This document shows, one piece after another, positions 26,083 to 42,305 of a stretch of DNA of 64,000 nucleotides (position 1 is its first letter; every line of letters begins with the position of its first letter). Source of the DNA: an uncultured SAR86 cluster bacterium (GTDB lineage Bacteria > Pseudomonadota > Gammaproteobacteria > Magnimaribacterales > AG-339-G14); NCBI GenBank assembly GCA_902594855.1, contig CACJNS010000001.1, positions 230,696 to 294,695 of the forward strand. The letters run 5' to 3'. The notes under the pieces were generated by a model. That model was not told the origin of the DNA. It searched no databases and saw nothing but the letters and a program-made list of their open reading frames with translations. The position numbers were made by a program, and so were the translations under genes.

Positions 26083-27157
26083 TAAATTAAAAGTAAGCAC
26101 GCCTAGTTCAAATTATTCCATTTATTTTGGTAATGATTTTATTAATAGCTTTCCCTTAAAAAAAATATCCAATTCAAAAGAAATTTTTTTTATTTTTGAC
26201 TCAAAACTTCCTGATTTATCAATCAGAAAAGTTAAGAGCTTTTTAAGGAAATCAAAGCCTAGTAAATTTGAATCCTTTAGATTCATAGCAAATGAAAAAA
26301 ATAAATCTTTAGAGACCTCTCAAAAAATTATAGAAAAATTAATTGATTTGAAATTCTCAAGAGATTCATTGATTGTTTCTTTTGGTGGCGGCATAACTAC
26401 AGATCTCGCAGGTTTTGTAGCTTCTGTATATCTTCGTGGAATTGAAGTTATGCATATTCCTACTACTCTTCTGGCCCAGGTCGATGCTTCTGTGGGGGGT
26501 AAAACAGGTGTTAACAGTAAAAAATTTAAAAATATGATTGGAGCATTCAAGCAACCTGAAGCAGTATTGATTGATACATACTTTCTTAAATCGCTGAGCA
26601 AAAGGCATTTAGCAGCAGGTTACTCAGAAATAATTAAACATGCGTTGATTGAAGATAAAAATCTTTTATCAAAATTAGATAACTTTGATCAGAATATTGA
26701 AAAGAAAGGAAACATTACCGAGTTATCAAACCTTATTAGGACATCAACAAAAATTAAGGCAAATATTGTTGAGCAAGACGAAAGAGAGAAATCAGTTAGA
26801 GCTTATCTAAACTTTGGTCATACTTTCGCACATGCCATAGAAAGCGTTCAATCTTTTAAGGGATTAAATCATGGCGAAGCAGTTGGCGTTGGAATGGTAT
26901 GTGCAACCAAATTATCTCTATTGTTAGGCAAAATAAATTCACAAGAGTTTGATAAAATTAAGTCCTTAATTAAAAAATTCAACCTTCCCACAAAACTTCC
27001 TGCTAATTGTGAACCTGCAAGAATTCTTAAAGCCATGCAATCGGATAAAAAAAGTAAAGACACAACTTTAAGATTCATTATTTTAGATGGAATAGGAAAG
27101 GCTAAAATAGTTGAAAACGTTGACAGAGAGAAAATCTTAAATAGCTTAAAAATATAA
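26069..27157 (+). CDS. aroB: 3-dehydroquinate synthase
   Basis: AroB is an NAD- and metal-dependent enzyme converting DAHP to 3-dehydroquinate. Motifs are FGGGITTDLAGFVASVYLRGI, PTTLLAQVDASVGGKTGVN, the metal-ligand glutamate in GYSEIIKHALI and histidines in LNFGHTFAHAIE and HGEAVGVGM. Length 362 is typical. A 202-nt gap follows, holding the promoter and riboswitch of gltB. Confidence 0.97.
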   Translation: MKTINKLKVSTPSSNYSIYFGNDFINSFPLKKISNSKEIFFIFDSKLPDLSIRKVKSFLRKSKPSKFESFRFIANEKNKSLETSQKIIEKLIDLKFSRDSLIVSFGGGITTDLAGFVASVYLRGIEVMHIPTTLLAQVDASVGGKTGVNSKKFKNMIGAFKQPEAVLIDTYFLKSLSKRHLAAGYSEIIKHALIEDKNLLSKLDNFDQNIEKKGNITELSNLIRTSTKIKANIVEQDEREKSVRAYLNFGHTFAHAIESVQSFKGLNHGEAVGVGMVCATKLSLLLGKINSQEFDKIKSLIKKFNLPTKLPANCEPARILKAMQSDKKSKDTTLRFIILDGIGKAKIVENVDREKILNSLKI

Positions 27158-27188
27158 AAAACATTTCTCTTATAACATAGAATAAAAA

Positions 27189-27218
27189 TTGGTCTTTTTT
27201 ATTATTTTTTGGTATAAA
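27189..27218 (+). promoter_or_regulatory. gltB: Putative sigma70-type promoter of gltB-gltD
   Basis: TTGGTC (27189-27194), 18-nt spacer, TATAAA (27213-27218). Predicted start near 27225 would give a leader of about 135 nt carrying the whole riboswitch. Position agrees with the aptamer boundaries, which raises confidence beyond the sequence match alone. Confidence 0.5.
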
Positions 27219-27250
27219 TAATTAAGTAAGAAATTAACATTCTTCCCTGA

Positions 27251-27348
27251 GATCTTGGGCTTAAGATCAATCGTTCATCCTTATTTGGGGACGGAAGTAG
27301 GTAAAAAATCAAACCGAAGGAACGCATCTTTCTATCAGGAAGGATGAA
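27251..27348 (+). ncRNA. Glutamine riboswitch (glnA RNA type) with translational expression platform
   Basis: The aptamer core carries the conserved blocks of the glnA RNA: cgttcatcc (27272-27280), gacggaagtagg and accgaaggaacg. P1 is CGTTC (27272-27276) with GAACG (27320-27324), extended by AAGAT (27263-27267) with ATCTT (27326-27330). A short TCC/GGA helix (27278-27280 with 27289-27291) and GGT/ACC helix (27300-27302 with 27313-27315) fit the three-way architecture. Downstream, a purine-rich ribosome site AGGAAGGA (27337-27344) precedes the gltB ATG at 27360. TTCATCCTT (27274-27282), part of the aptamer, is perfectly complementary over 9 nt to AAGGATGAA (27340-27348). A second hairpin, 27325-27332 with 27339-27346, also covers the site. 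Both compete with the folded aptamer, so glutamine should expose the ribosome site. Confidence 0.9.
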
Positions 27349-27359
27349 GCATTGACTCG

Positions 27360-30300
27360 ATGGTAAAAGGTATAAATAAAAAATTAATAGAGCGTCCAAA
27401 AAAGAAAGGACTTTATGATCCAGCTAGCGAGAAGGATTCTTGTGGCGTTGGCCTAGTTGCCAACATTAAGGGAATACCTTCAAGAGAAATCATGGATGAT
27501 GCCTACCTTATCAACTCTAGAATGGATCACAGAGGAGGATGTGGTTTTGAAGAAAACACAGGAGATGGAGCTGGCATTCTTCTTGCTTTGCCGGATTCTT
27601 TTTTTCAAGATCAGGCAAAAAAAATAAATATTAATCTTCCTGATTTTGGTTCTTATGCTGTAGGTAATATTTTTCTGCCACAGGATCAAAAAGAAAGATC
27701 TTTTTGTAAAAAAATCGTTGAACAGACTATTAAATCAGAAGGACAGAAATTTTTAGGTTGGAGAAAAGTTCCTATTAATCCTAAAAAGGCAGACGTTGGA
27801 CCTGCTGCTAGAGATTGTCAGCCTGAGATAGAACAAGTTTTCGTTCAAAAATCTACCAAACTTGATCAGGAGGCCTTTGAAAGAAAACTTTACTTAATTA
27901 GAAAAATTTTCACTAAACGACTTAGATATCAAGAAAATTTGAGTCAAGCCTCTTTGTTTTATGCTTGCACCCTTTCATCGAGACTGATTGCTTATAAAGG
28001 CATGCTTACCCCAGCTCAGCTTTTCCCTTTTTTCCCAGATCTTGAAAATAAAAAATTCGAGACTCATTTGGCAATGGTTCACTCGAGATTCAGTACGAAC
28101 ACCTTCCCTTCTTGGGATAGAGCTCAACCCAACAGATATATGTGTCATAACGGCGAGATAAACACTTTAAAAGGAAACATGAATCAAATGTATTCTCGAC
28201 AAGGTCTTGCGAGAAGTGATTATTTCGGTTCAAAAATTAATAAATTATTCCCTATAACGGAACCAGACTGCTCTGATTCAGGTTCATTCGATAATGTTCT
28301 TGAGCTACTAATTATGTCAGGAAGAGAACTACCTGAGGCTGCCATGATGATGATTCCTGAAGCCTGGCAAAATGACAATGAAATGAGCCCAGCAAAAAAA
28401 GCCTTTTATGAATACTCATCATCATTTATGGAACCTTGGGATGGTCCTGCATCTATAGTTTTCACAGATGGAAATTATGTTGGAGCCGTTTTAGATAGAA
28501 ATGGACTCAGACCAAGTAGATTTTATGTAACTGATGACGACAAAGTTATCATGGCTTCAGAGGTAGGAGTACTTCCGGTTGATCAAGCAAAGGTTTTATC
28601 AAAAGGAAGACTTCAGCCAGGAAAAATGTTTCTTATTGATTTTGAGGAAGGCAGGATGATTCCAGATGAAGAAATCAAAAAAAGGGTCTCAAAAAAACTT
28701 CCCTATAAAGATTGGGTAAAAAATCAAATTATAGATATCCAAGATCTAAAAACATCCAAAACAAAATATAAAACAGACGATCTAATCTCAAGGATGCAGT
28801 CTTTCGGTTACACCACTGAAACACTTGAGTTCATGTTGCTACCCCTTGTAACTGAGTTGAGAGATCCTCTTGGATCAATGGGAAATGATGCTGCTTTAGC
28901 ATGTTTATCTGATAAACCCAGAATGATTTATGACTACTTCAAGCAACTTTTTGCTCAGATTACTAATCCAGCAATCGACTCAATAAGAGAGGAAGTAATC
29001 ATGTCTCTTGAATGCCTAATAGGTCCAGAGAGTAATTTGCTCGAATCTTTAGAAGAAAATGCACATCGATTAAGATTGAAGCATCCTATTCTTTCAAATG
29101 AAGAATTGATTAGTATAAAGAATAACAAAGATTATGGTTGGACTACTAAGACTATCGATATTACATACGAAAGAGGTAGTGGAGCCTCAGGTCTAAAGAA
29201 AGCTCTAAAAAGAATCTGCACTGAATCAGAGGACGCAATAAAGCAAGGATATTCTTTTGTGCTTCTATCTGACAGAAATCTGTCGAAAAGTAGAGTTGCT
29301 ATAAGTTCATTGCTTGCGTGTTCCTCCGTCCATCATCATTTAGTTAGAAAAGAAAAAAGAACACAATTAGGATTGATTATTGAGTCTGGCGAAGCCAGAG
29401 AGGTTCATCATCACTGCCTTCTTATCGGATATGGGGCTGATGCAATAAATCCTTACCTAGCTTTTGAAGTTTTGGAGAAGTCTTTAAAAGATCAAATACT
29501 GCAAGATAAAAAATTGAGAAATACCTCAGATTTAGTTAATGCCTATAAAAAAGGAGTTGCTAAGGGTATGTTGAAGGTCATGGCAAAAATGGGAATATCG
29601 ACACTTCAATCTTACAAAGGTGCTCAAATTTTTGAAGCGGTTGGTTTAGCTGATGAAATAATTGATTTTTGTTTCCCGGGGACTACTAGTAGAGTACAAG
29701 GGGTAAATTTTGAAGTTTTAGCTGAAGAAATAGAGAGAAGGCATGCAATAGGTTTTCCTGAATATGATCAAAATAAAGTATCTGTTCTTCCTAATCCTGG
29801 AGATTTTCATTGGCGTAACGGTGGTGATTCACACATGTGGGATCCAAAATCAATTTCCTCTTTACAACTAGCCTCTCAAGCCAATGACGAGAGTAAATAT
29901 TGGGAATTCTCAAATCATGCAAATGAACAGACTACCAAAAACAGTACTTTGAGAGGCCTAATGAAATTCAAATATCCTAAAAAGGGAATTCCTTTGGATC
30001 AAGTTGAATCTGAAAAAGAAATTGTAAAAAGGTTTGCAACCGGAGCAATGTCACTAGGCTCTATCTCTACAGAAGCTCATGAATCGCTTGCATTGGCAAT
30101 GAATGAACTAGGAGGTAAATCTAATACAGGTGAAGGAGGAGAAGATCCTATTAGATTTAAACCATTAAAAGATGGGAGATCTAAAAGATCAGCAATAAAA
30201 CAAGTTGCCTCTGGAAGGTTTGGTGTGACTATGTGGTACCTGACTAACTCTGACGAACTTCAGATAAAGATTGCGCAAGGTGCAAAGCCCGGAGAAGGCG

Positions 30301-31919
30301 GTGAGCTCCCTGGAAAAAAAGTCGATCAATATATAGCAAAGATAAGACATTCCACGCCAGGCGTTGGACTAATAAGTCCTCCTCCTCATCATGATATCTA
30401 CTCTATTGAGGACATAGCACAATTAATTCACGATCTTAAAAATGCTAACAGGAAAGCTAGGATAAGTGTGAAGCTGGTCTCTGAAATTGGAGTTGGAACT
30501 ATTGCAGCTGGAGTAGTAAAAGCGAAAACAGATCATCTGGTCATTGCTGGTCACGATGGAGGAACAGGAGCCTCTCCATTAACATCGATCAAGCACGCAG
30601 GACTTCCCTGGGAGCTTGGAATTGCTGAAACACACCAAACTTTGGTGATGAATAATTTAAGATCCAGGGTGGTTCTCCAAACAGATGGCCAGTTAAAGAC
30701 TGGGAGAGATGTTGCTATAGCAGCCATCCTAGGAGCTGAGGAGTTTGGTTTCTCAACAGCGCCGCTGGTTACTTTGGGGTGCATTATGATGAGAAAGTGT
30801 CACTTAAATACTTGCCCAGTTGGAATTGCTACTCAAGATAAAGATCTAAGAGAAAAATTTAAAGGTAAGCCAGAAAACGTTGTTAATTATCTTTTTATGG
30901 TTGCAAAAGAGCTAAGAATGATAATGGCGAAGTTAGGAATCAAAAATCTCAATGACATGATAGGAAGAGTTGATCTTCTCGAATTAGATAACGCAATCAA
31001 TCATTGGAAAAAAGATGGCATTGATTTATCAAATCTTCTTACTCCTGCTGAAAAAGTATTTAAAAATACTGATGTATTTAAAACTCAAGATCAAAATCAC
31101 AATCTAGAAAAATCACTTGATCTCAAGCTACTTAAAAAGATCAAACCATCAATATTAAGTAGAGAGAAAATTACAATAAATCAGAAAATTGGGAACACAA
31201 ACAGAGTTTTTGGCACCATTATCTCTAATGAGATCTCTAAAATCTGGGAAAACAAAGGATTGCCTGAGGATACAATTCACATGAAATTAGATGGATCCGC
31301 TGGACAAAGTCTTGGAGCTTGGACTTGCAAAGGCATGACCATTGAGCTTGAAGGGGATGCGAATGACTATGTTGGTAAAGGACTTTCAGGTGGAAAAATA
31401 ATCATCTATCCGGACAAGAGAAGTAAATTTGTAGCAGAAGATAATATTATTCTTGGAAATGTTGCACTTTATGGAGCTACAGGAGGGGAGGCATATTTCA
31501 GAGGGATAGCCGCAGAGAGATTTTGCGTGAGAAACAGTGGAGCTAAGGTTGTAGTAGAAGGTATCGGAGATCACGGATGCGAATACATGACCGGTGGAGT
31601 GGCAGTAATTCTTGGAGATACAGGCAGAAACTTCGGTGCCGGAATGAGTGGAGGAGTTGCATACGTTTATGATTCTAAAAACTCATTCAAGAGAAAATGC
31701 AACATCAGCACTTTTGAGTTAGAAAAATTAGAAAATGAGAATGATCTCAAAGAGCTTAAGCAACTAATAAAAAATCATAAGAAATTTACTGGTTCAGCTG
31801 TAGCGACTAGAATCTTAAAGGATTGGAACAATTCAATATCAAAATTCGTAAAAGTAATGCCTACTGATTACAAAAGAGTCATGATGGAATTAAAAGAAAC
31901 AAAACTTAAAGTGAGTTGA
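27360..31919 (+). CDS. gltB: Glutamate synthase (NADPH) large subunit
   Basis: GltB transfers the amide of glutamine to 2-oxoglutarate. The 1519-residue protein has the N-terminal Ntn amidotransferase with nucleophile Cys28 (SEKDSCGVG), normally exposed by removing a short propeptide; the central domain; the FMN-binding synthase domain (IRHSTPGVGLISPPPHHD, VIAGHDGGTGASP); the 3Fe-4S cysteines in GCIMMRKCHLNTCPVG; and the C-terminal GXGXG beta-helix (GLSGGKIIIYP, GAGMSGGVAYVY). gltD follows after 1 nt. Expression is predicted to be controlled by the leader riboswitch, apt because glutamine is the substrate. Confidence 0.98.
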   Translation: MVKGINKKLIERPKKKGLYDPASEKDSCGVGLVANIKGIPSREIMDDAYLINSRMDHRGGCGFEENTGDGAGILLALPDSFFQDQAKKININLPDFGSYAVGNIFLPQDQKERSFCKKIVEQTIKSEGQKFLGWRKVPINPKKADVGPAARDCQPEIEQVFVQKSTKLDQEAFERKLYLIRKIFTKRLRYQENLSQASLFYACTLSSRLIAYKGMLTPAQLFPFFPDLENKKFETHLAMVHSRFSTNTFPSWDRAQPNRYMCHNGEINTLKGNMNQMYSRQGLARSDYFGSKINKLFPITEPDCSDSGSFDNVLELLIMSGRELPEAAMMMIPEAWQNDNEMSPAKKAFYEYSSSFMEPWDGPASIVFTDGNYVGAVLDRNGLRPSRFYVTDDDKVIMASEVGVLPVDQAKVLSKGRLQPGKMFLIDFEEGRMIPDEEIKKRVSKKLPYKDWVKNQIIDIQDLKTSKTKYKTDDLISRMQSFGYTTETLEFMLLPLVTELRDPLGSMGNDAALACLSDKPRMIYDYFKQLFAQITNPAIDSIREEVIMSLECLIGPESNLLESLEENAHRLRLKHPILSNEELISIKNNKDYGWTTKTIDITYERGSGASGLKKALKRICTESEDAIKQGYSFVLLSDRNLSKSRVAISSLLACSSVHHHLVRKEKRTQLGLIIESGEAREVHHHCLLIGYGADAINPYLAFEVLEKSLKDQILQDKKLRNTSDLVNAYKKGVAKGMLKVMAKMGISTLQSYKGAQIFEAVGLADEIIDFCFPGTTSRVQGVNFEVLAEEIERRHAIGFPEYDQNKVSVLPNPGDFHWRNGGDSHMWDPKSISSLQLASQANDESKYWEFSNHANEQTTKNSTLRGLMKFKYPKKGIPLDQVESEKEIVKRFATGAMSLGSISTEAHESLALAMNELGGKSNTGEGGEDPIRFKPLKDGRSKRSAIKQVASGRFGVTMWYLTNSDELQIKIAQGAKPGEGGELPGKKVDQYIAKIRHSTPGVGLISPPPHHDIYSIEDIAQLIHDLKNANRKARISVKLVSEIGVGTIAAGVVKAKTDHLVIAGHDGGTGASPLTSIKHAGLPWELGIAETHQTLVMNNLRSRVVLQTDGQLKTGRDVAIAAILGAEEFGFSTAPLVTLGCIMMRKCHLNTCPVGIATQDKDLREKFKGKPENVVNYLFMVAKELRMIMAKLGIKNLNDMIGRVDLLELDNAINHWKKDGIDLSNLLTPAEKVFKNTDVFKTQDQNHNLEKSLDLKLLKKIKPSILSREKITINQKIGNTNRVFGTIISNEISKIWENKGLPEDTIHMKLDGSAGQSLGAWTCKGMTIELEGDANDYVGKGLSGGKIIIYPDKRSKFVAEDNIILGNVALYGATGGEAYFRGIAAERFCVRNSGAKVVVEGIGDHGCEYMTGGVAVILGDTGRNFGAGMSGGVAYVYDSKNSFKRKCNISTFELEKLENENDLKELKQLIKNHKKFTGSAVATRILKDWNNSISKFVKVMPTDYKRVMMELKETKLKVS

Positions 31920-31920
31920 G

Positions 31921-33366
31921 ATGGGAAAAGTAACTGGCTTTAAAGAATTCTCTCGAGAAGTTGAGCCTTACAGGCCAGCTAAGTCTAGGGTTTTGGACTT
32001 TAAAGAAATATACACTGATCATGACGATAAGCTCCTGAATACTCAAGCAGCCAGATGTATGAATTGTGGTGTGCCCTTCTGTCAATCAGGTGAAGGCTGT
32101 CCTGTATACAATTTAATTCCTGAGTGGAATGATTTGGTCTACAACGAGCAGTGGGAAGACGCATTTGATAGGCTTTTCAAAACAAATAATTTTCCAGAAG
32201 TTACAGGAAGGGTCTGTCCAGCAGTCTGCGAAGGGGCTTGTGTTTTAGGCATAACTGAAACTCCTGTCGCCATTAAAAATCTAGAATTTGCAATCGCTGA
32301 CAAAGGAATAAAATCTGGATGGCTTAAGCCTAAAGTTCCAGAAGTCAGAACCAATAGAAAAATAGCTATAGTCGGATCAGGTCCTGCTGGTCTTTCAGCA
32401 GCTCAACAACTAAATAGCGTTGGCCATTCTGTTGAAGTCTACGAAAGATCTGACCGCATCGGTGGACTAATGATGTATGGAATTCCTAACATGAAACTCG
32501 ATAAATCAATATTAGATATGAGAATTGAGATCATGGAGAAGGAAGGGATAGTTTTTCATACAAATACTGATATTGGTGCTCCGAATTCACCCTCTCTTGA
32601 AAACCTTATCAACGAGAATGATTCTGTCCTCTTAACCACTGGAGCTACTAAACCCAGAGATCTGGCCATCCCTGGCAGAGAAGGAGATGGTGTTCACTTT
32701 GCCATGGAATTTCTTGGTAAAAACACTAAAAGTCTATTAGACAGCAAACTCAAAAATAACAATTTTATCTCTGCCAAAGATAAGAACGTAATTGTCATTG
32801 GTGGAGGAGACACAGGAAACGATTGTCTCGGGACATCATTAAGACACAAGTGCAAAAGTCTTCTTAATTTTGAAATAATGCCTGAGCTGCCAAAAGATAG
32901 AGCAGATAACAATCCTTGGCCTCTTTTTCCTAGAATACATAAAGTTGATTATGGCCATGAAGAATCAATCGAGGTATTAGGAAAAGATCCTAGGGAATAT
33001 TCAATCTCTGGAAAAGAATTTTTAAGAGATGAGTCTGGAAAGTTAATAGGAATCAAAACGGTAATGGTTGATTCAGCTTTTAAAGAAATAAAAGGAACTG
33101 AAAAAACTTGGAAAGCAGATCTTATTCTTCTAGCGATGGGTTTTCTTGGACCAGAAAACTATATCAATCAAGAAGTAGATATAGATCTTGATGAAAGATC
33201 TAATTTTAAGGCAGATCACAATATACATAAAACCTCACATCCAAAAGTTTTTGCTGCCGGGGATTGCAGAAGAGGCCAATCACTTGTTGTTTGGGCGATA
33301 AATGAGGGAAGAGCCGCTGCTCGAGAAATTGATAAAGAATTAATGGGCTCTACTGCTCTTATTTAG
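31921..33366 (+). CDS. gltD: Glutamate synthase (NADPH) small subunit
   Basis: GltD supplies electrons from NADPH through FAD and iron-sulfur clusters to GltB. Two N-terminal cysteine clusters are seen ([16 protein letters not shown] and [12 protein letters not shown]), then the FAD Rossmann motif [14 protein letters not shown], the NADPH site [11 protein letters not shown] and the C-terminal FAD block [18 protein letters not shown]. Length 481 is typical. It starts 1 nt after gltB, so it shares the riboswitch-controlled transcript. Its end overlaps convergent tesB by 8 nt, leaving no room for a dedicated terminator. Confidence 0.98.
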
Positions 33367-35125: not shown

Positions 35126-36112
35126 ATGACAATTTCAACTTCCCAAAATCTAAGCGCGACTCCAGATATTAAGGTCAGCGTTGGAAATACCTTTGGCTTT
35201 GACTCTAATCTAGAAGTACCGGCCTTTTCTGAACCAAGTGAATACGTTCCTGCCCTTGATCCCGACTATTGTTTTGACAAAGAGACAACCCTCTCCATTC
35301 TTGCAGGATTTTCGCATAATCGTCGAGTAATGATTCAAGGTTTGCATGGTTCTGGTAAATCAACTCACATTGAACAAGTCGCTTCAAGATTAAATTGGCC
35401 TTGTGTGAGGATTAACCTAGATAGTCATATCAGCAGACTAGACTTGCTGGGCAAAGATGCAATTGTTATTGAAGATGGAAAGCAATTAACAAAATTTGTA
35501 GAAGGCATACTTCCTTGGGCAATACAGAATTCGGTTGCGTTAGTTTTTGATGAGTATGATGCAGGAAGACCGGATGTAATGTTTGTCATTCAAAGGGTTC
35601 TTGAAGCTGAAGGAAAATTAACCTTGTTGGATCAAAATAGAGTTTTAACGCCTAATCCGTATTTTAGATTATTTGCAACAGCAAACACCGTAGGTTTGGG
35701 AGATAGTACTGGCCTTTATCATGGGACACAGCAGATAAATCAAGGACAAATGGATAGATGGCAAATCGTGTCAGTTTTAAACTATTTAGATGAGGAGCTT
35801 GAGCAAAAGGTTATCCTTTCAAAAGTAAAAGATCTAGATAACAAAGAAGGAAAAGAAACTGTCCTAAATATGATTAGACTAGCCAACCTAACAAGAAAAG
35901 GATTTGAGAGTGGGGATATATCAACATTAATGTCGCCTAGAACGGTCATTAGTTGGGCAGAAAATTATTCTATTTTTGAAGATTTGGTTAAATCATTCGA
36001 GCTGAGTTTTCTCAATAAGTCAGATGAAACTGAAAGACCAATCATTTCAGAATATTTTCAGAGATGTTTTGGTGCTGAAACCAATAGTTCCATAAGCTCT
36101 GAATCCAATTAA
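35126..36112 (+). CDS. cobS: CobS-type AAA+ ATPase (cobaltochelatase/MoxR-like)
   Basis: AAA+ ATPase homologous to CobS, the motor of aerobic cobaltochelatase CobNST. Walker A GLHGSGKST is at about 71-79, Walker B VALVFDEYDAG at about 137-147, followed by sensor 1 (RLFATANT) and an arginine-finger region (GQMDRW). Length 328 matches CobS. It pairs with CobT 3 nt downstream. No cobN or other B12 gene lies in the window, so cobalt insertion is not established; MoxR/VWA-type pairs also mature other metalloenzymes. Confidence 0.88.
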   Translation: MTISTSQNLSATPDIKVSVGNTFGFDSNLEVPAFSEPSEYVPALDPDYCFDKETTLSILAGFSHNRRVMIQGLHGSGKSTHIEQVASRLNWPCVRINLDSHISRLDLLGKDAIVIEDGKQLTKFVEGILPWAIQNSVALVFDEYDAGRPDVMFVIQRVLEAEGKLTLLDQNRVLTPNPYFRLFATANTVGLGDSTGLYHGTQQINQGQMDRWQIVSVLNYLDEELEQKVILSKVKDLDNKEGKETVLNMIRLANLTRKGFESGDISTLMSPRTVISWAENYSIFEDLVKSFELSFLNKSDETERPIISEYFQRCFGAETNSSISSESN

Positions 36113-36115
36113 ATT

Positions 36116-37864
36116 TTGTTAGAGAAATCTGATAAACAAACCATAAAGGATGCGCTTGCAGCTTCGGCTAAAGCTATTTCTGAAGATACAGAATTAAATG
36201 TAAATTTTGGAATAGAGAACCTTAGACAAAGTTCTTTGCCAGAACCGCTTCAACCAGTTAAAAACTTTAATGATCTCAGGGCAAAATCTGATCAATTGGC
36301 TCTCATAAATAAATATTCAAGTGATAATTTATTCACGCATAGAGATGCAAAAGTAAATGAAATCATAAAGAACCTAGACCTTACTAGAGTCGAACTGCTG
36401 GGGTCAAAAAAATTTCTAGGAGTTTCAAAAAACCTTGAATTTCTTTTTCAGAAAAATATTAATTCTTTGGATGCAAATGAAGACTCTTCTTCTGTAGCTA
36501 TCTCGCATTGGTTGAGATCTGAACTTCTCGGACAAGAATTAGGACGTCCTGATTCAAAAAAATTTGAAGATCTTTATGAGAAACTCATTTCTTTTCAGGA
36601 GAAATACTTAGGGCAATTAGAAGAGTCTTTAGAAAGTTCGTTGGACTTTTCAAAAGTCATCTTTTCTTTACTAAAAGATCTAGAAATTAGCGTGGATGAG
36701 CAACAGCCTGAAGAAGAGAATGATGAGAAAAATGAAGAAGAAAATGAAGATGAGTCCAGCGAAGAAGAAAATCAGGAAGAGGAAGAAGAAACTGACTCAG
36801 AGGATGGACAAAGTGACGAACAAGATACTTCTATAGAAGAAGAAGAAGAAATGGATATCGAAGAAGGTGAAGTAGATGCTGATGAAGATTCATGGATTGA
36901 AAATAGATCAAAATTAGAAGAACTTCTAAAAAAAGTTGGGGAACAAGAGTATAAAGTTTACACAAAAGATTTTGATGAAGAAGTTAAGGCAGAGGAATTA
37001 TGTGACTCAGAAGAATTAGCTAGATTAAGAGGAAGATTGGATCAATTAATGGAATCCAGTAAAAATGCTATAGCGAAATTAGCTAATAGACTGCAAAGAT
37101 TATTGTTAGCTCAACAGAATAGATCTTGGGAATTTGATAAGGAGGAAGGTCAGCTAGATCCCAGCAAACTTCACAAAATTATAGTAGATCCTCTCACTCC
37201 ATTGAGTTTCAAAATTGAAAAAGACTCAGAGTTTAAAGATACCCTAGTTTCTATTTTGGTAGATAGCTCTGGATCTATGAGAGGAAGATCAATGACTACT
37301 GCTGCGATATGCGCAGATATCATTGGCAGCACTCTTGATCGATGCAACATAAAAACAGAGATTCTTGGATTTACAACTAAGCACTGGAAAGGTGGAGACT
37401 CCAGAAAGTTATGGTTAGAGCAAGGTAAAATCCCTAATCCAGGGCGCTTAAATGACTTGAGACACATAATCTTCAAACCTGCAGATCAAGCTTGGAGACG
37501 GGGACGAAAAAATTTAGGACTGATGCTCAGGGAGGGGCTTTTAAAAGAGAATGTAGATGGAGAAGCATTGATGTGGGCTCAAAACAGACTAAACAAAAGA
37601 CCTGAGCAAAGAAAAATATTGATGGTTATTTCAGATGGAGCCCCTGTTGATGACAGTACGCTTTCGACAAACTCTACTAATTATCTTGATACTCATCTAA
37701 GAGACGTTATAAAAAAAGTAGAAACCGCATCTGAGACGGAACTAATTGCAATAGGTATCGGACATGATGTTACAAGATACTATAAAAAAGCAGTCACCAT
37801 TCACAGGGCAGAAGAGTTAGGAGGGGCTATGCTTGATCAGTTAACTTCGCTGTTTGAAACCTGA
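36116..37864 (+). CDS. cobT: CobT-type VWA-domain protein
   Basis: Partner of CobS in CobNST. The N-terminal helical region (about 1-195) is followed by a very acidic Glu/Asp segment (about 196-261) and a C-terminal von Willebrand A domain (about 375-582) with the metal-ion-dependent adhesion motif [20 protein letters not shown] and the terminal DQLTSLFE are CobT signatures. Start is a TTG at 36116, 3 nt after cobS; no nearby ATG precedes the conserved part. The acidic linker could bind divalent cations. The neighbouring di-iron protein gene follows after 57 nt with its own promoter. Confidence 0.87.
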
Positions 37865-39076: not shown

Positions 39077-41482
39077 TTATTTAATTTTTAATCTTAAATA
39101 GAAAGTCAGGTTAGCCTGACTTTCTGCTTTTATGTTATTGAGATTCTCAACGAGAAATAATTTAAGTCCGAATTCGGAAAAATCATTGATTGGTGATGAA
39201 TAATTCGCAGAAAGAACTCTTTCTCTATGGGCAGGCGCCAGGTTAACTTTCACTGTATCCACAGTGGAATTACCAAGATAGTTTCTTCCAGATATATATT
39301 GAAGGTCAGCTGTACCTTTTTCTACAGTTAAAGGAATTAAATAGTCCAATCTAAAACGATCTTTCTTATTGAAAATATCTTTACCAAGAATGCTTAGGTT
39401 TGTTGATGTAAGAAATGATGAATCCGATCTAATATTGATAAAAGAGAAATTTTCATAAGGTTCAGCTCTCATGCCTGTCAATGATATAAAGGCTGAGAAA
39501 TTCTCATTAATAAAAAAATCTGAATCGACGGTTATTATTGAAGAATAAGAATTTTTTGAAGAACTTTGTCCATTTAAAAACATCATCCCAAGATAAGAAG
39601 AATCTTCCTCAAGGCGTCCCAATTTGATGGAAGTTTTATTATTTTTTGAGAAGATATTTAACTGAGTTGAAAAATACTTCGAATAAGCCTTATCTTGATC
39701 AGTCCAAGGATTCCAACCCTGGAAACCTTTAGAAAAACTAAAACCATAACCAAATCTTTTATTTTTGAATGAATATTTGATACTTGGCCCATTGGATACA
39801 AAATTTTTAATCGGATCGTAAGAAGTACTTAGCGATGAATAATAATTCTTCTGATTTAAAGATAAATTAAAGGAATTATAGGGATCTAAAGAAAAAGCAT
39901 ATGAAAAACCACTTTTCTGAGTAGTTTGATTAGATAAAAAATCATAATTCTCTATTGTGGAAAATAACTGTAAATATTCATTTTCTGATTTAGGTAATTG
40001 CGAGTTTTGGAATCTAGGTAAATAACTATTTTCTGGATTATTATTTCTTATGAGTTGACTAGCATTAATTGAAAAAGGGGCTCCAAGCTCATCAAAATAA
40101 GTTAAGAATAGTTTGTCGTCTAAGTTATCGAGACTTCCAAATAATGGCGAACTCAAAAAAATATTGGCCTGAGAAAAAGTGGTTACTTGGTTTGTTATGG
40201 GAGAAATAAAATAAGTTTGTCCAATCGGTTCTATAGCTTTTTTTAAATCAAGAAGACCTTGGCCGTAAATATCAGAATTTGAGTAAACTCCTTCCTTATT
40301 TGCTGTTACATAAATACGTTGAAGTATTTCTTGCCCAGTCAACTGACCCCTAAATTTTTCTGTTAGCAAAGCTATTGCGCCGCTGACGAAAGGGGCTGCG
40401 AAAGAAGTTCCTGAACCTGTTCCATAGTTATCATTTTCAGGATATTCATTCGTAACATAAGCCCCGGTAATATTCTCGCCTGGAGCAGCAATACAAAAAT
40501 CTTTTGCTAGGCCACAACGATTAGAATGATCTGCAATCAGGCCTTCTTCGTTTACTGAAACAACTGCGACAGAGGTATCTTGGAGCTCTTCGATAAAATA
40601 GACCATTCCTGGAAAAATTTCAGGACTGGAGTTATCAACTTGTTGTTCTGAGTATCCTCCTGCATTACCTGCACTCCATACAAATATCGTTTTATTGATC
40701 TTATTCTGCTGCGCAATGGTTTCTATTACAGTAGGAAAAGATGCTCGAACTGCAGACTCTTCATAATCTGCAATGTTTCCTTGCATTCCATAACTATTAT
40801 TCACTGCCGTAACATATCTGGATGTAAAGTCTTTATAAAAAGAGGCATATGCCTGGTCAAGACTGCTGTAATCCTCTGCATTATCTTCAGTGACTTCTAC
40901 AGGTTCATAATTATCGTCAGGTTCTGCAAGAGGGATAGCAATAAAATGAATTTGGGCGTTATAAGCAACTCCTTGAATATCGTTAGGATTATTGCTTTCA
41001 TCTCTATCTCCTGCAGCTATTGATGCAACAAAAGTTCCATGAGTTTTATCATCTGATGTAGGCGCCCTATATCCTGAAAAATTTGAATAGTCTAAAATAC
41101 TATCAGTTGTAATTTTGTTCTGCGAATCAAGCTCTACGTGATTTGTTTCAATTCCACTATCCATTATTCCAATGGTTGTTCCGGCACCAGAAAGATTATT
41201 TGCATATGGTTCTGCAGCATTAATCATGGAAAGCCCGTATTGATTTATATACTCAACTGAACTGGTAAATTTAGTCATCAGTTCCACATAAGAAGCTGTA
41301 GAGTCTGAATTGCTCGAGTCTTGAGAAGATTGTGTTTGACTTGAATTTGATTGTGAGTTCTGAGGAGGAACGTCATTGCTTGGGGAGGAAGGCTGTGTTG
41401 AACTTCCCTTCCCTCCGCCGCCACAGTTAGCCAATGCAATTGCAAAAAAACAAATTGTAATAATTTGCTTAAAATTCTTCAT
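39077..41482 (-). CDS. Subtilisin-family (S8) lipoprotein autotransporter protease
   Basis: Starting at the ATG at 41482 gives a lipoprotein signal MKNFKQIITICFFAIALANC with lipobox LANC (Cys20) and a Gly/Ser/Gln-rich linker; a longer ORF start 60 nt upstream would bury the signal. The S8 triad appears as GIMDSGIETNH (Asp, about 107), THGTFVASIAAG (His, about 147) and GTSFAAPFVSGA (Ser, about 355). From about residue 530 the sequence turns into alternating polar/aromatic strands typical of an outer-membrane beta-barrel, ending FYLRLKIK. This layout resembles lipidated autotransporter proteases such as Neisseria NalP. It is divergent from coaW with a 25-nt gap and convergent with the ferritin-like gene. 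Confidence 0.85.
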   Translation of the reverse strand: MKNFKQIITICFFAIALANCGGGGKGSSTQPSSPSNDVPPQNSQSNSSQTQSSQDSSNSDSTASYVELMTKFTSSVEYINQYGLSMINAAEPYANNLSGAGTTIGIMDSGIETNHVELDSQNKITTDSILDYSNFSGYRAPTSDDKTHGTFVASIAAGDRDESNNPNDIQGVAYNAQIHFIAIPLAEPDDNYEPVEVTEDNAEDYSSLDQAYASFYKDFTSRYVTAVNNSYGMQGNIADYEESAVRASFPTVIETIAQQNKINKTIFVWSAGNAGGYSEQQVDNSSPEIFPGMVYFIEELQDTSVAVVSVNEEGLIADHSNRCGLAKDFCIAAPGENITGAYVTNEYPENDNYGTGSGTSFAAPFVSGAIALLTEKFRGQLTGQEILQRIYVTANKEGVYSNSDIYGQGLLDLKKAIEPIGQTYFISPITNQVTTFSQANIFLSSPLFGSLDNLDDKLFLTYFDELGAPFSINASQLIRNNNPENSYLPRFQNSQLPKSENEYLQLFSTIENYDFLSNQTTQKSGFSYAFSLDPYNSFNLSLNQKNYYSSLSTSYDPIKNFVSNGPSIKYSFKNKRFGYGFSFSKGFQGWNPWTDQDKAYSKYFSTQLNIFSKNNKTSIKLGRLEEDSSYLGMMFLNGQSSSKNSYSSIITVDSDFFINENFSAFISLTGMRAEPYENFSFINIRSDSSFLTSTNLSILGKDIFNKKDRFRLDYLIPLTVEKGTADLQYISGRNYLGNSTVDTVKVNLAPAHRERVLSANYSSPINDFSEFGLKLFLVENLNNIKAESQANLTFYLRLKIK
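39100..39125 (+). terminator. Hairpin terminator for the ferritin-like gene, inside subtilase 3' coding end
   Basis: Perfect 11-bp stem AGAAAGTCAGG / CCTGACTTTCT with a TTAG loop, followed by GCTTTTAT on the plus strand. It lies 27-52 nt after the ferritin-like stop codon and codes on the other strand for the last residues of the autotransporter barrel. The U-tract is short, so efficiency is uncertain. Confidence 0.6.
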
Positions 41483-41507
41483 GTATGATGTAAACAAAAA
41501 AAGTTCA

Positions 41508-42305
41508 ATGAAAGTAGGAATTGATTTTGGTATAAGTTTCACAGATTTATCTATTCTAGATGAATCTAAAGCAAAGTTTATATCTTTCGATTCTAAAAGG
41601 TTATCAGTTTCTAATATTTCAAAACAAATTCATAAATTAGTTAATTTTGATGATGTCGAATTCATAGGTGTGACAGGGGGAAAGCACTATGATTTACCTT
41701 CAAAAATTGGTGGAATCGAGCTATCGCATGCAAATGAAATAGATGCCATCAGTAAAGGTACAAATTATTTGGCTAAAAATGATAAGAAAAAGTTAATTAT
41801 CAGCTCTGGATCTGGTACGGCATTCGTCTTAAGCGACGGAAATATGATATCTCATGCAGGGGGAACAGGCGTTGGAGGAGGAACTATAGTTGGTTTGTGT
41901 AATCTAATTAATGATGAAAATAATCCAGACGTAATCAATAAACTTGCAAATCGAGGTAAGGTAGAAAAGGTAGATTTATTACTTAATGAAGTTGTATCAG
42001 GTCCAATAGGCGAATTACCCAAAGATGCAACCGCAGTAAATTTTGGAAAAGTAAGATATAAAAACAAATCAACTAAAGCAGATAAAACAGCTGCAATAAT
42101 GAATTTAGTCGGACAAACTGTTGCCAGGATGGCTTCTGCGACAGCAGTAGCATTCAACTGCGAGAATGTTTACGTAGTTGGGAGAACGCCTCAATATGAT
42201 CTATACAAGAGCGTTCTAAAAAGGTGGATTTCTTTTGCTGGATTAACGGCTGATTTCCCAAATAATGGAGAGTTTGCAAGCTCTTTAGGGACTCTTATTG
42301 ATTAA
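41508..42305 (+). CDS. coaW: Type II pantothenate kinase
   Basis: CoaW phosphorylates pantothenate, the first step to CoA. The protein starts KVGIDFGISFTDLSI (phosphate-1 motif of the ASKHA fold), with VTGGKHYDLP, the catalytic-region ANEIDAI, ISSGSGTAFVL and GGTGVGGGTIVGL, all as in type II kinases of staphylococci and eukaryotes. The ATG at 41508 is chosen over an upstream in-frame start that would run through the divergent subtilase gene. Its end overlaps the convergent M28 gene by 21 nt. Type II enzymes are typically insensitive to CoA feedback, at least in Staphylococcus. Confidence 0.88.
   Translation: MKVGIDFGISFTDLSILDESKAKFISFDSKRLSVSNISKQIHKLVNFDDVEFIGVTGGKHYDLPSKIGGIELSHANEIDAISKGTNYLAKNDKKKLIISSGSGTAFVLSDGNMISHAGGTGVGGGTIVGLCNLINDENNPDVINKLANRGKVEKVDLLLNEVVSGPIGELPKDATAVNFGKVRYKNKSTKADKTAAIMNLVGQTVARMASATAVAFNCENVYVVGRTPQYDLYKSVLKRWISFAGLTADFPNNGEFASSLGTLID

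Follow-up and report, generated by a model that had tools for sequence, protein, structure and literature searches.

A type-1 glutamine riboswitch aptamer in the gltBD leader of a SAR86 bacterium and its candidate translational platform

The window analysed here is a 64,000-nucleotide stretch from the genome of an uncultured SAR86 bacterium and features the local gene order aroK, aroB, leader, gltB, gltD. The gene gltB (27360–31919, forward strand) encodes the large subunit of glutamate synthase with 1519 residues and matches NF008730 with 1733 bits, the cut-off being 1047 bits. It is followed after 1 nt by gltD (31921–33366, forward strand), which encodes the small subunit with 481 residues (TIGR01317, 684 bits). 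The original prediction had named gltB of glutamate synthase as the target and a gammaproteobacterium as the host; both hold, as judged by the family match of gltB with gltD next to it and by the nearest named gltB relatives, which belong to uncultured SAR86 single-cell genomes (79% and 73%). The host genome comprises 1.23 Mb on 15 contigs, and published SAR86 genomes are likewise small (PMC11582366). Further downstream in the window, genes for the cobaltochelatase subunits CobS and CobT adjoin each other at 35126–37864 in this streamlined genome, both scoring below the curated cut-offs, and an 821-residue protein on the reverse strand (39077–41542) features a subtilisin-like serine protease region resembling autotransporter proteases.

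The leader of gltB carries a match to RF01739, the type-1 glutamine riboswitch or glnA RNA, at 27270–27328 on the forward strand (AUCGUUCAUCCUUAUUUGGGGACGGAAGUAGGUAAAAAAUCAAACCGAAGGAACGCAUC). The covariance-model scan aligns all model positions (1–53 of 53) with a score of 64.0 bits (gathering score 35), corresponding to an E-value of 7.7e-12 for the 64-kb window and of 3.5e-14 when the whole genome is searched. A glutamine aptamer had been predicted at 27263–27330 with the expectation of a significant RF01739 hit, and this is what was obtained. In the Rfam scan of the window, four matches exceed their cut-offs, namely RF01739 and three ribosomal RNAs, so that the glutamine aptamer is the sole riboswitch among them; a sensitive scan of 26800–27800 returns the same match with no non-standard or broken canonical pairs. 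As judged by the RF01739 alignment, the aptamer forms a three-way junction of P1 (27272–27276/27320–27324), P2 (27278–27282/27287–27291), and P3 (27300–27302/27313–27315), with CGGAAGUA in J2/3 (27292–27299) and GAAG in J3/1 (27316–27319). It lies on the same strand as gltB and 31 nt 5′ of this nitrogen-assimilation gene. The type-2 model (RF01704) reaches only 14.2 bits on this element, with a cut-off of 33 and only the 5′ part aligned, and the type-2 pseudoknot fold is absent; the element does not belong to type 2. By sequence and alignment, it is a type-1 glutamine riboswitch aptamer in the 5′ leader of gltBD.

The ligand pocket was mapped onto the sequence of the solved Synechococcus elongatus aptamer (PMC5393176), with contacts taken from PMC6698751 and PMC11477058. 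In this structure, glutamine contacts the pair C1:G59 as well as G22 and C58, and the linchpin pair G23:C60 forms in the glutamine-bound state (PMC6698751, PMC11477058). The equivalents in the window are C27272:G27324 for C1:G59, G27293 for G22, C27323 for C58, and G27294:C27325 for the linchpin; G22 and G23 are thus found at 27293–27294, and all six contact and linchpin nucleotides (C1, G22, G23, C58, G59, and C60) are kept. On the basis of this mapping, the aptamer would be expected to bind glutamine. The C60 equivalent at 27325 has a second role in the folds: It is the linchpin partner of G27294 in the glutamine-bound state and, at the same time, the first base of a stem that sequesters the Shine–Dalgarno sequence (SD).

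This stem is the probable expression platform. The tail directly after P1, CAUCUUUCU (27325–27333), pairs with the Shine–Dalgarno region GGAAGGAUG (27338–27346) to give a stem of 9 bp with the loop AUCA (27325–27346), which sits flush against P1 and has a local folding energy of −12.3 kcal/mol (z −2.31). The Shine–Dalgarno sequence itself, AGGAAGGA (27337–27344, read from the sequence), is separated from the gltB start by 15 nt, a longer distance than usual, and is invariant in the seven leaders of the genus apart from one A-to-G change. The arms of the stem are likewise invariant except for this one change, which is kept as a U–G pair, while the loop varies. The pairing extends to other loci: When all distinct single-aptamer leaders of SAR86 or viral origin whose P1 is followed by GCAUC are taken, chosen blind to the SD, a complementary G[AG]UG is fused to the SD in 67 of 68, compared with 17 of 358 control SD sites from the same loci. 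Viral leaders of YRG (DUF4278-like) genes share this tail–SD platform. No transcription terminator was found between the aptamer and gltB, so translational control is the simplest reading, and the translation start is most likely the point at which gltB is controlled.

In the mechanism that we propose, the stem between CAUCUUUCU and GGAAGGAUG would be complete when glutamine is scarce, and gltB would be little translated. Binding of glutamine would allow the linchpin G27294–C27325 to form at the base of P1, taking the first base of the SD stem; this would separate the stem from P1 and let the SD open more readily, so that glutamate synthase would be made when glutamine is plentiful. We consider it probable, with some reserve, that the leader works in this way as a translational type-1 glutamine riboswitch of the ON type. 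The ON direction is favored because C60 is both the linchpin base and the first base of the SD stem and because glutamine activates the characterized type-1 and type-2 glutamine riboswitches (PMC6316151, PMC6698751). An ON switch also makes metabolic sense, since glutamate synthase consumes glutamine.

The opposite direction deserves to be weighed; we regard it as about half as probable as ON. In an OFF switch, the ligand-stabilized P1 would stack flush on the SD stem and favor it, and glutamate synthase would be cut when nitrogen is ample. P1 and the SD stem indeed abut without any spacer; when the aptamer is enforced in the model, both fold, and the SD stem coexists with the folded aptamer. 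With the aptamer folded and C60 left free, opening of the SD in the short leader costs 8.8 kcal/mol compared with 7.7 kcal/mol in the free RNA, a shift in the OFF direction. In addition, one would expect glutamine to repress certain other targets of the order, glnA among them. Against this stand the bound structure, whose linchpin engages C60, where the SD stem begins, and the activation by both characterized glutamine riboswitch types. When the aptamer is formed and C60 is unavailable, the cost in the short leader drops from 7.7 kcal/mol for the free RNA to 5.9 kcal/mol; with C60 reserved for the linchpin, it drops in 64 of 72 non-gltB leaders by a mean of 1.8 kcal/mol. Part of this drop stems from the way the model withholds C60. 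In the long leader, starting near 27225, the linchpin has no clear effect (10.9 versus 10.1 kcal/mol), and strong pairing of the SD persists across all modeled states. Folding alone gives no more than a weak lean toward ON.

The long leader follows from a −10-like box, TATAAA, preceded by TGG (27213–27218, forward strand), which was read from the sequence and is conserved across the gltB leaders of this genus. A strict sigma-70 scan of the gltB leader returned no site; transcription probably starts near 27225 if this box serves as the promoter. A transcript of this length would contain an upstream strand, CAUUCUUCC (27238–27246), that can pair with the SD region (27338–27346) around the aptamer, and directly 5′ of the aptamer, a hairpin GAUCUU...AAGAUC (27251–27268) that is seen in the long-leader folds and whose arms are invariant in seven sequences. 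The upstream strand, or co-transcriptional folding, could be the controlling element, with the P1-adjacent stem being secondary. This reading is improbable in our view: The strand is conserved, and the long-range helix appears in both the minimum-energy and the consensus fold of the long leader, but it encloses the aptamer and fits both of its states, which offers no obvious switch. Furthermore, the outer pair of the helix wobbles or breaks in three of seven sequences, and not a single double change is found.

Three further pairings were considered and rejected. The original prediction had included an extended P1, and AAGAU (27263–27267) is complementary to AUCUU (27326–27330); this helix is absent from every minimum-energy fold, including those in which the aptamer was enforced. 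AAGAUC pairs better with GAUCUU in the hairpin at 27251–27268, and CAUCUUUCU pairs better with the Shine–Dalgarno region. The 5′ strand of the aptamer, UUCAUCCUU (27274–27282), can form 9 bp with the SD region AAGGAUGAA (27340–27348), which is the best fold of a truncated leader; this pairing is not kept in other leaders with the same platform, and the complementarity is in part a by-product of the repeated CAUC. Finally, a hairpin GAAGGA/UCUUUC that would break P1 and the SD stem is present in the long-leader fold and is lost where the tail reads CAUCUC or CAUCUAA.

Within the genus, the aptamer is found in seven of seven assembled gltB leaders, whose sequences hardly differ between the TATAAA box and the start codon; in the two other genomes of the genus, gltB is missing or cut by the end of a contig. 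A decayed or decoy aptamer without function is very improbable, given the invariant ligand-contact and linchpin nucleotides, the score of 64 bits, and the conservation of the whole leader in seven genomes; it would be compatible with the literature searched, in which no SAR86 experiment was found. Across the SAR86 order, RF01739 exceeds the cut-off in 81 of 203 genomes, often in tandem. The host, which had been considered notable as a gammaproteobacterium, is a SAR86 bacterium and no isolated oddity. In a class-wide sample of 369 genomes, RF01739 exceeds the cut-off only in the window genome, in G039 of the same order, and in G486, a 1.1-Mb genome of another family, and in a phylum-wide sample of 399 genomes only in the window genome. 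The genes directly 3′ of the SAR86 aptamers include glnA (26 loci), gltB (7 loci), TonB receptors (8 loci), a circularly permuted ATP-grasp protein (10 loci), and a Gcw_chp protein (14 loci), which in family f4 is divergent from gltB; glnA and the TonB receptors were named from sequence and not from a family search.

G486 features separate RF01739 aptamers before gltB and before gltD and is an independent tie of this RNA class to glutamate synthase. At both loci (L134, L136), the two hairpins after the aptamer, CACCAAACU/AGUUUGGUG and GUUUGGUGA/UCAUCAAAC, are mutually exclusive and form a platform unlike that of the window. With the leaders of the genus on one side and the unrelated G486 on the other, RF01739 has probably been recruited to glutamate synthase at least twice.

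The glutamine synthetase of the host (G000:C1:581435-581653) is encoded in an open frame of 349 residues and is weak against the usual GlnA model with 28 bits, and the riboswitch-linked glnA proteins of other SAR86 genomes (e.g., L006 and L117) mostly have approximately 325 to 335 residues. This suggests that SAR86 riboswitch-linked glnA encodes a eukaryote-type GSII. Eukaryote-type GSII lacks control by adenylylation. At other SAR86 loci (L167, L168, L019, L020, L023, L138, and L185), single or tandem aptamers immediately precede genes for peptides that are small (approximately 40 to 60 residues) and very basic; three examples gave no Pfam match over the cut-off, and these peptides are possibly analogues of the cyanobacterial glutamine synthetase inactivating factors. 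Viral contigs with RF01739 were also found (IMG/VR): At least 120 viral stretches (L230–L309) carry a type-1 aptamer with a GCAUC tail in front of small genes, in many cases as a tandem, and the SD-fused G[AG]UG occurs in 42 of 42 distinct proximal viral leaders tested. When phage records were searched for the gltB leader, only chance matches came up.

The only other RF01739-like site of the host genome lies outside the window at G000:C6:31975-32116 (L002:1446-1587, reverse strand) and is a composite variant, one of a group of RNAs that closely resemble each other. It scores 20 bits in the whole-genome search, 40.6 bits in the sensitive search, and 149.5 bits with a model of its own. P1 and P2 are intact, as are the two junction motifs, and P3 carries approximately 70 extra nucleotides that form an outer helix and two inner hairpins connected by long, almost invariant joints, GAAAACCUC, AGCAAGUACC, and GGGAACGAGACCGA. 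The variant model has matches in 42 of 203 SAR86 genomes (loci L002, L025–L031, L140–L150, and L360–L379) and none in 340 genomes across the class outside SAR86; the exact 20-nt core is absent from the viral contigs, and the insert matches no Rfam family at E-values up to 1. In 37 distinct sequences, whose alignment was fitted to the structure, 12 of 27 pairs are changed on both sides, and none of 500 shuffles reaches the observed covariation score. The structure itself was derived from a MAFFT alignment of 14 sequences, which shows seven double-changed pairs, again with none of 500 shuffles reaching this level. The gene after the variant encodes approximately 54 residues with three YRG motifs, and one such protein matches DUF4278 at an E-value of 5e-4, under the curated cut-off. 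DUF4278 is a domain linked to cyanobacterial glutamine riboswitches (PMC6316151).

Three sister genera keep the aroB–gltB order, and their gltB lacks the aptamer. In its place, the gltB leaders (L207–L224, L032, and L033) feature tandem H-type pseudoknots: Two or three units follow one another head to tail, each with the pattern GGCAU-AUCAC-AUGCC-UUAAAA-GUGA, for example GGCAUAUCACAUGCCUUAAAAGUGA. The hairpin loop of each unit pairs with its tail, and the pairing covaries as UCAC:GUGA, GUCC:GGAC, GUCC:GGGC, and UGCC:GGCA. Given the shortness and relatedness of the units, this covariation counts as moderate evidence. Across 61 related genomes, hits to this motif fall almost exclusively before gltB, and the Rfam scan of the sister-genus gltB leaders gave no match. 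The tandem pseudoknot is possibly an undescribed riboswitch. Together with the P3-insert aptamer, it is more novel than the riboswitch of the window. A joint reading of these observations, which we put forward tentatively, would be an order-wide SAR86 regulon of glutamine RNAs that replaces protein-based nitrogen control, with gltB being RNA-controlled in all four genera of the family by two unrelated devices; the sister-genus pseudoknot might sense glutamine or a related metabolite, and the composite P3 insert might be a second ligand-binding domain.

The RNA class and the target of the window riboswitch are both known, and the host group seems not to have been named before. Glutamate synthase was listed in 2010 among the targets of glnA RNAs from marine sequence and metagenomes (PMC2864571); gltB is the target as predicted, but the novelty attached to it is not upheld. 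A 2018 review describes glutamine riboswitches as restricted to cyanobacteria and assigns the associations with glutamine synthetase, PII, and ammonium transporters to uncultured environmental strains (PMC6316151), and marine phages carry glutamine riboswitches as well (PMC9004378). In the part of the literature that was searched, no paper tying RF01739 to SAR86 was found. SAR86 bacteria are among the commonest bacteria of the surface ocean, and the associations with glutamine synthetase and glutamate synthase can now be placed in their genomes, so part of the environmental set of glutamine riboswitches probably comes from them. The findings suggest RNA-based control of steps in the GS–GOGAT cycle among streamlined heterotrophs, an idea that is testable since the order now has an isolate (PMC11582366).

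Compared with the type-1 aptamer of S. elongatus (5DDP), the window aptamer shares the sequence and structure over the full model, the contact and linchpin nucleotides, and the position before a nitrogen-assimilation gene. It differs in its host, SAR86 instead of a cyanobacterium, in its small A-rich P3 loop, in the SD stem that directly abuts P1, and in its target gltBD. The type-2 riboswitch (Downstream-peptide, RF01704) has CGUUCA and the glutamine pocket in common with the window aptamer, whereas its pseudoknot fold is absent here. The gifB (IF17) riboswitch of Synechocystis belongs to the same aptamer class and is activated by glutamine, the direction favored for the window; the inhibitor of glutamine synthetase that it controls carries a DUF4278 domain, whereas the target in the window is glutamate synthase (PMC6316151). 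Closest in both RNA class and target gene are the metagenomic glnA RNAs before glutamate synthase, which were assigned only to cyanobacteria and marine sequence (PMC2864571), whereas the gene of the window is placed in SAR86 genomes.
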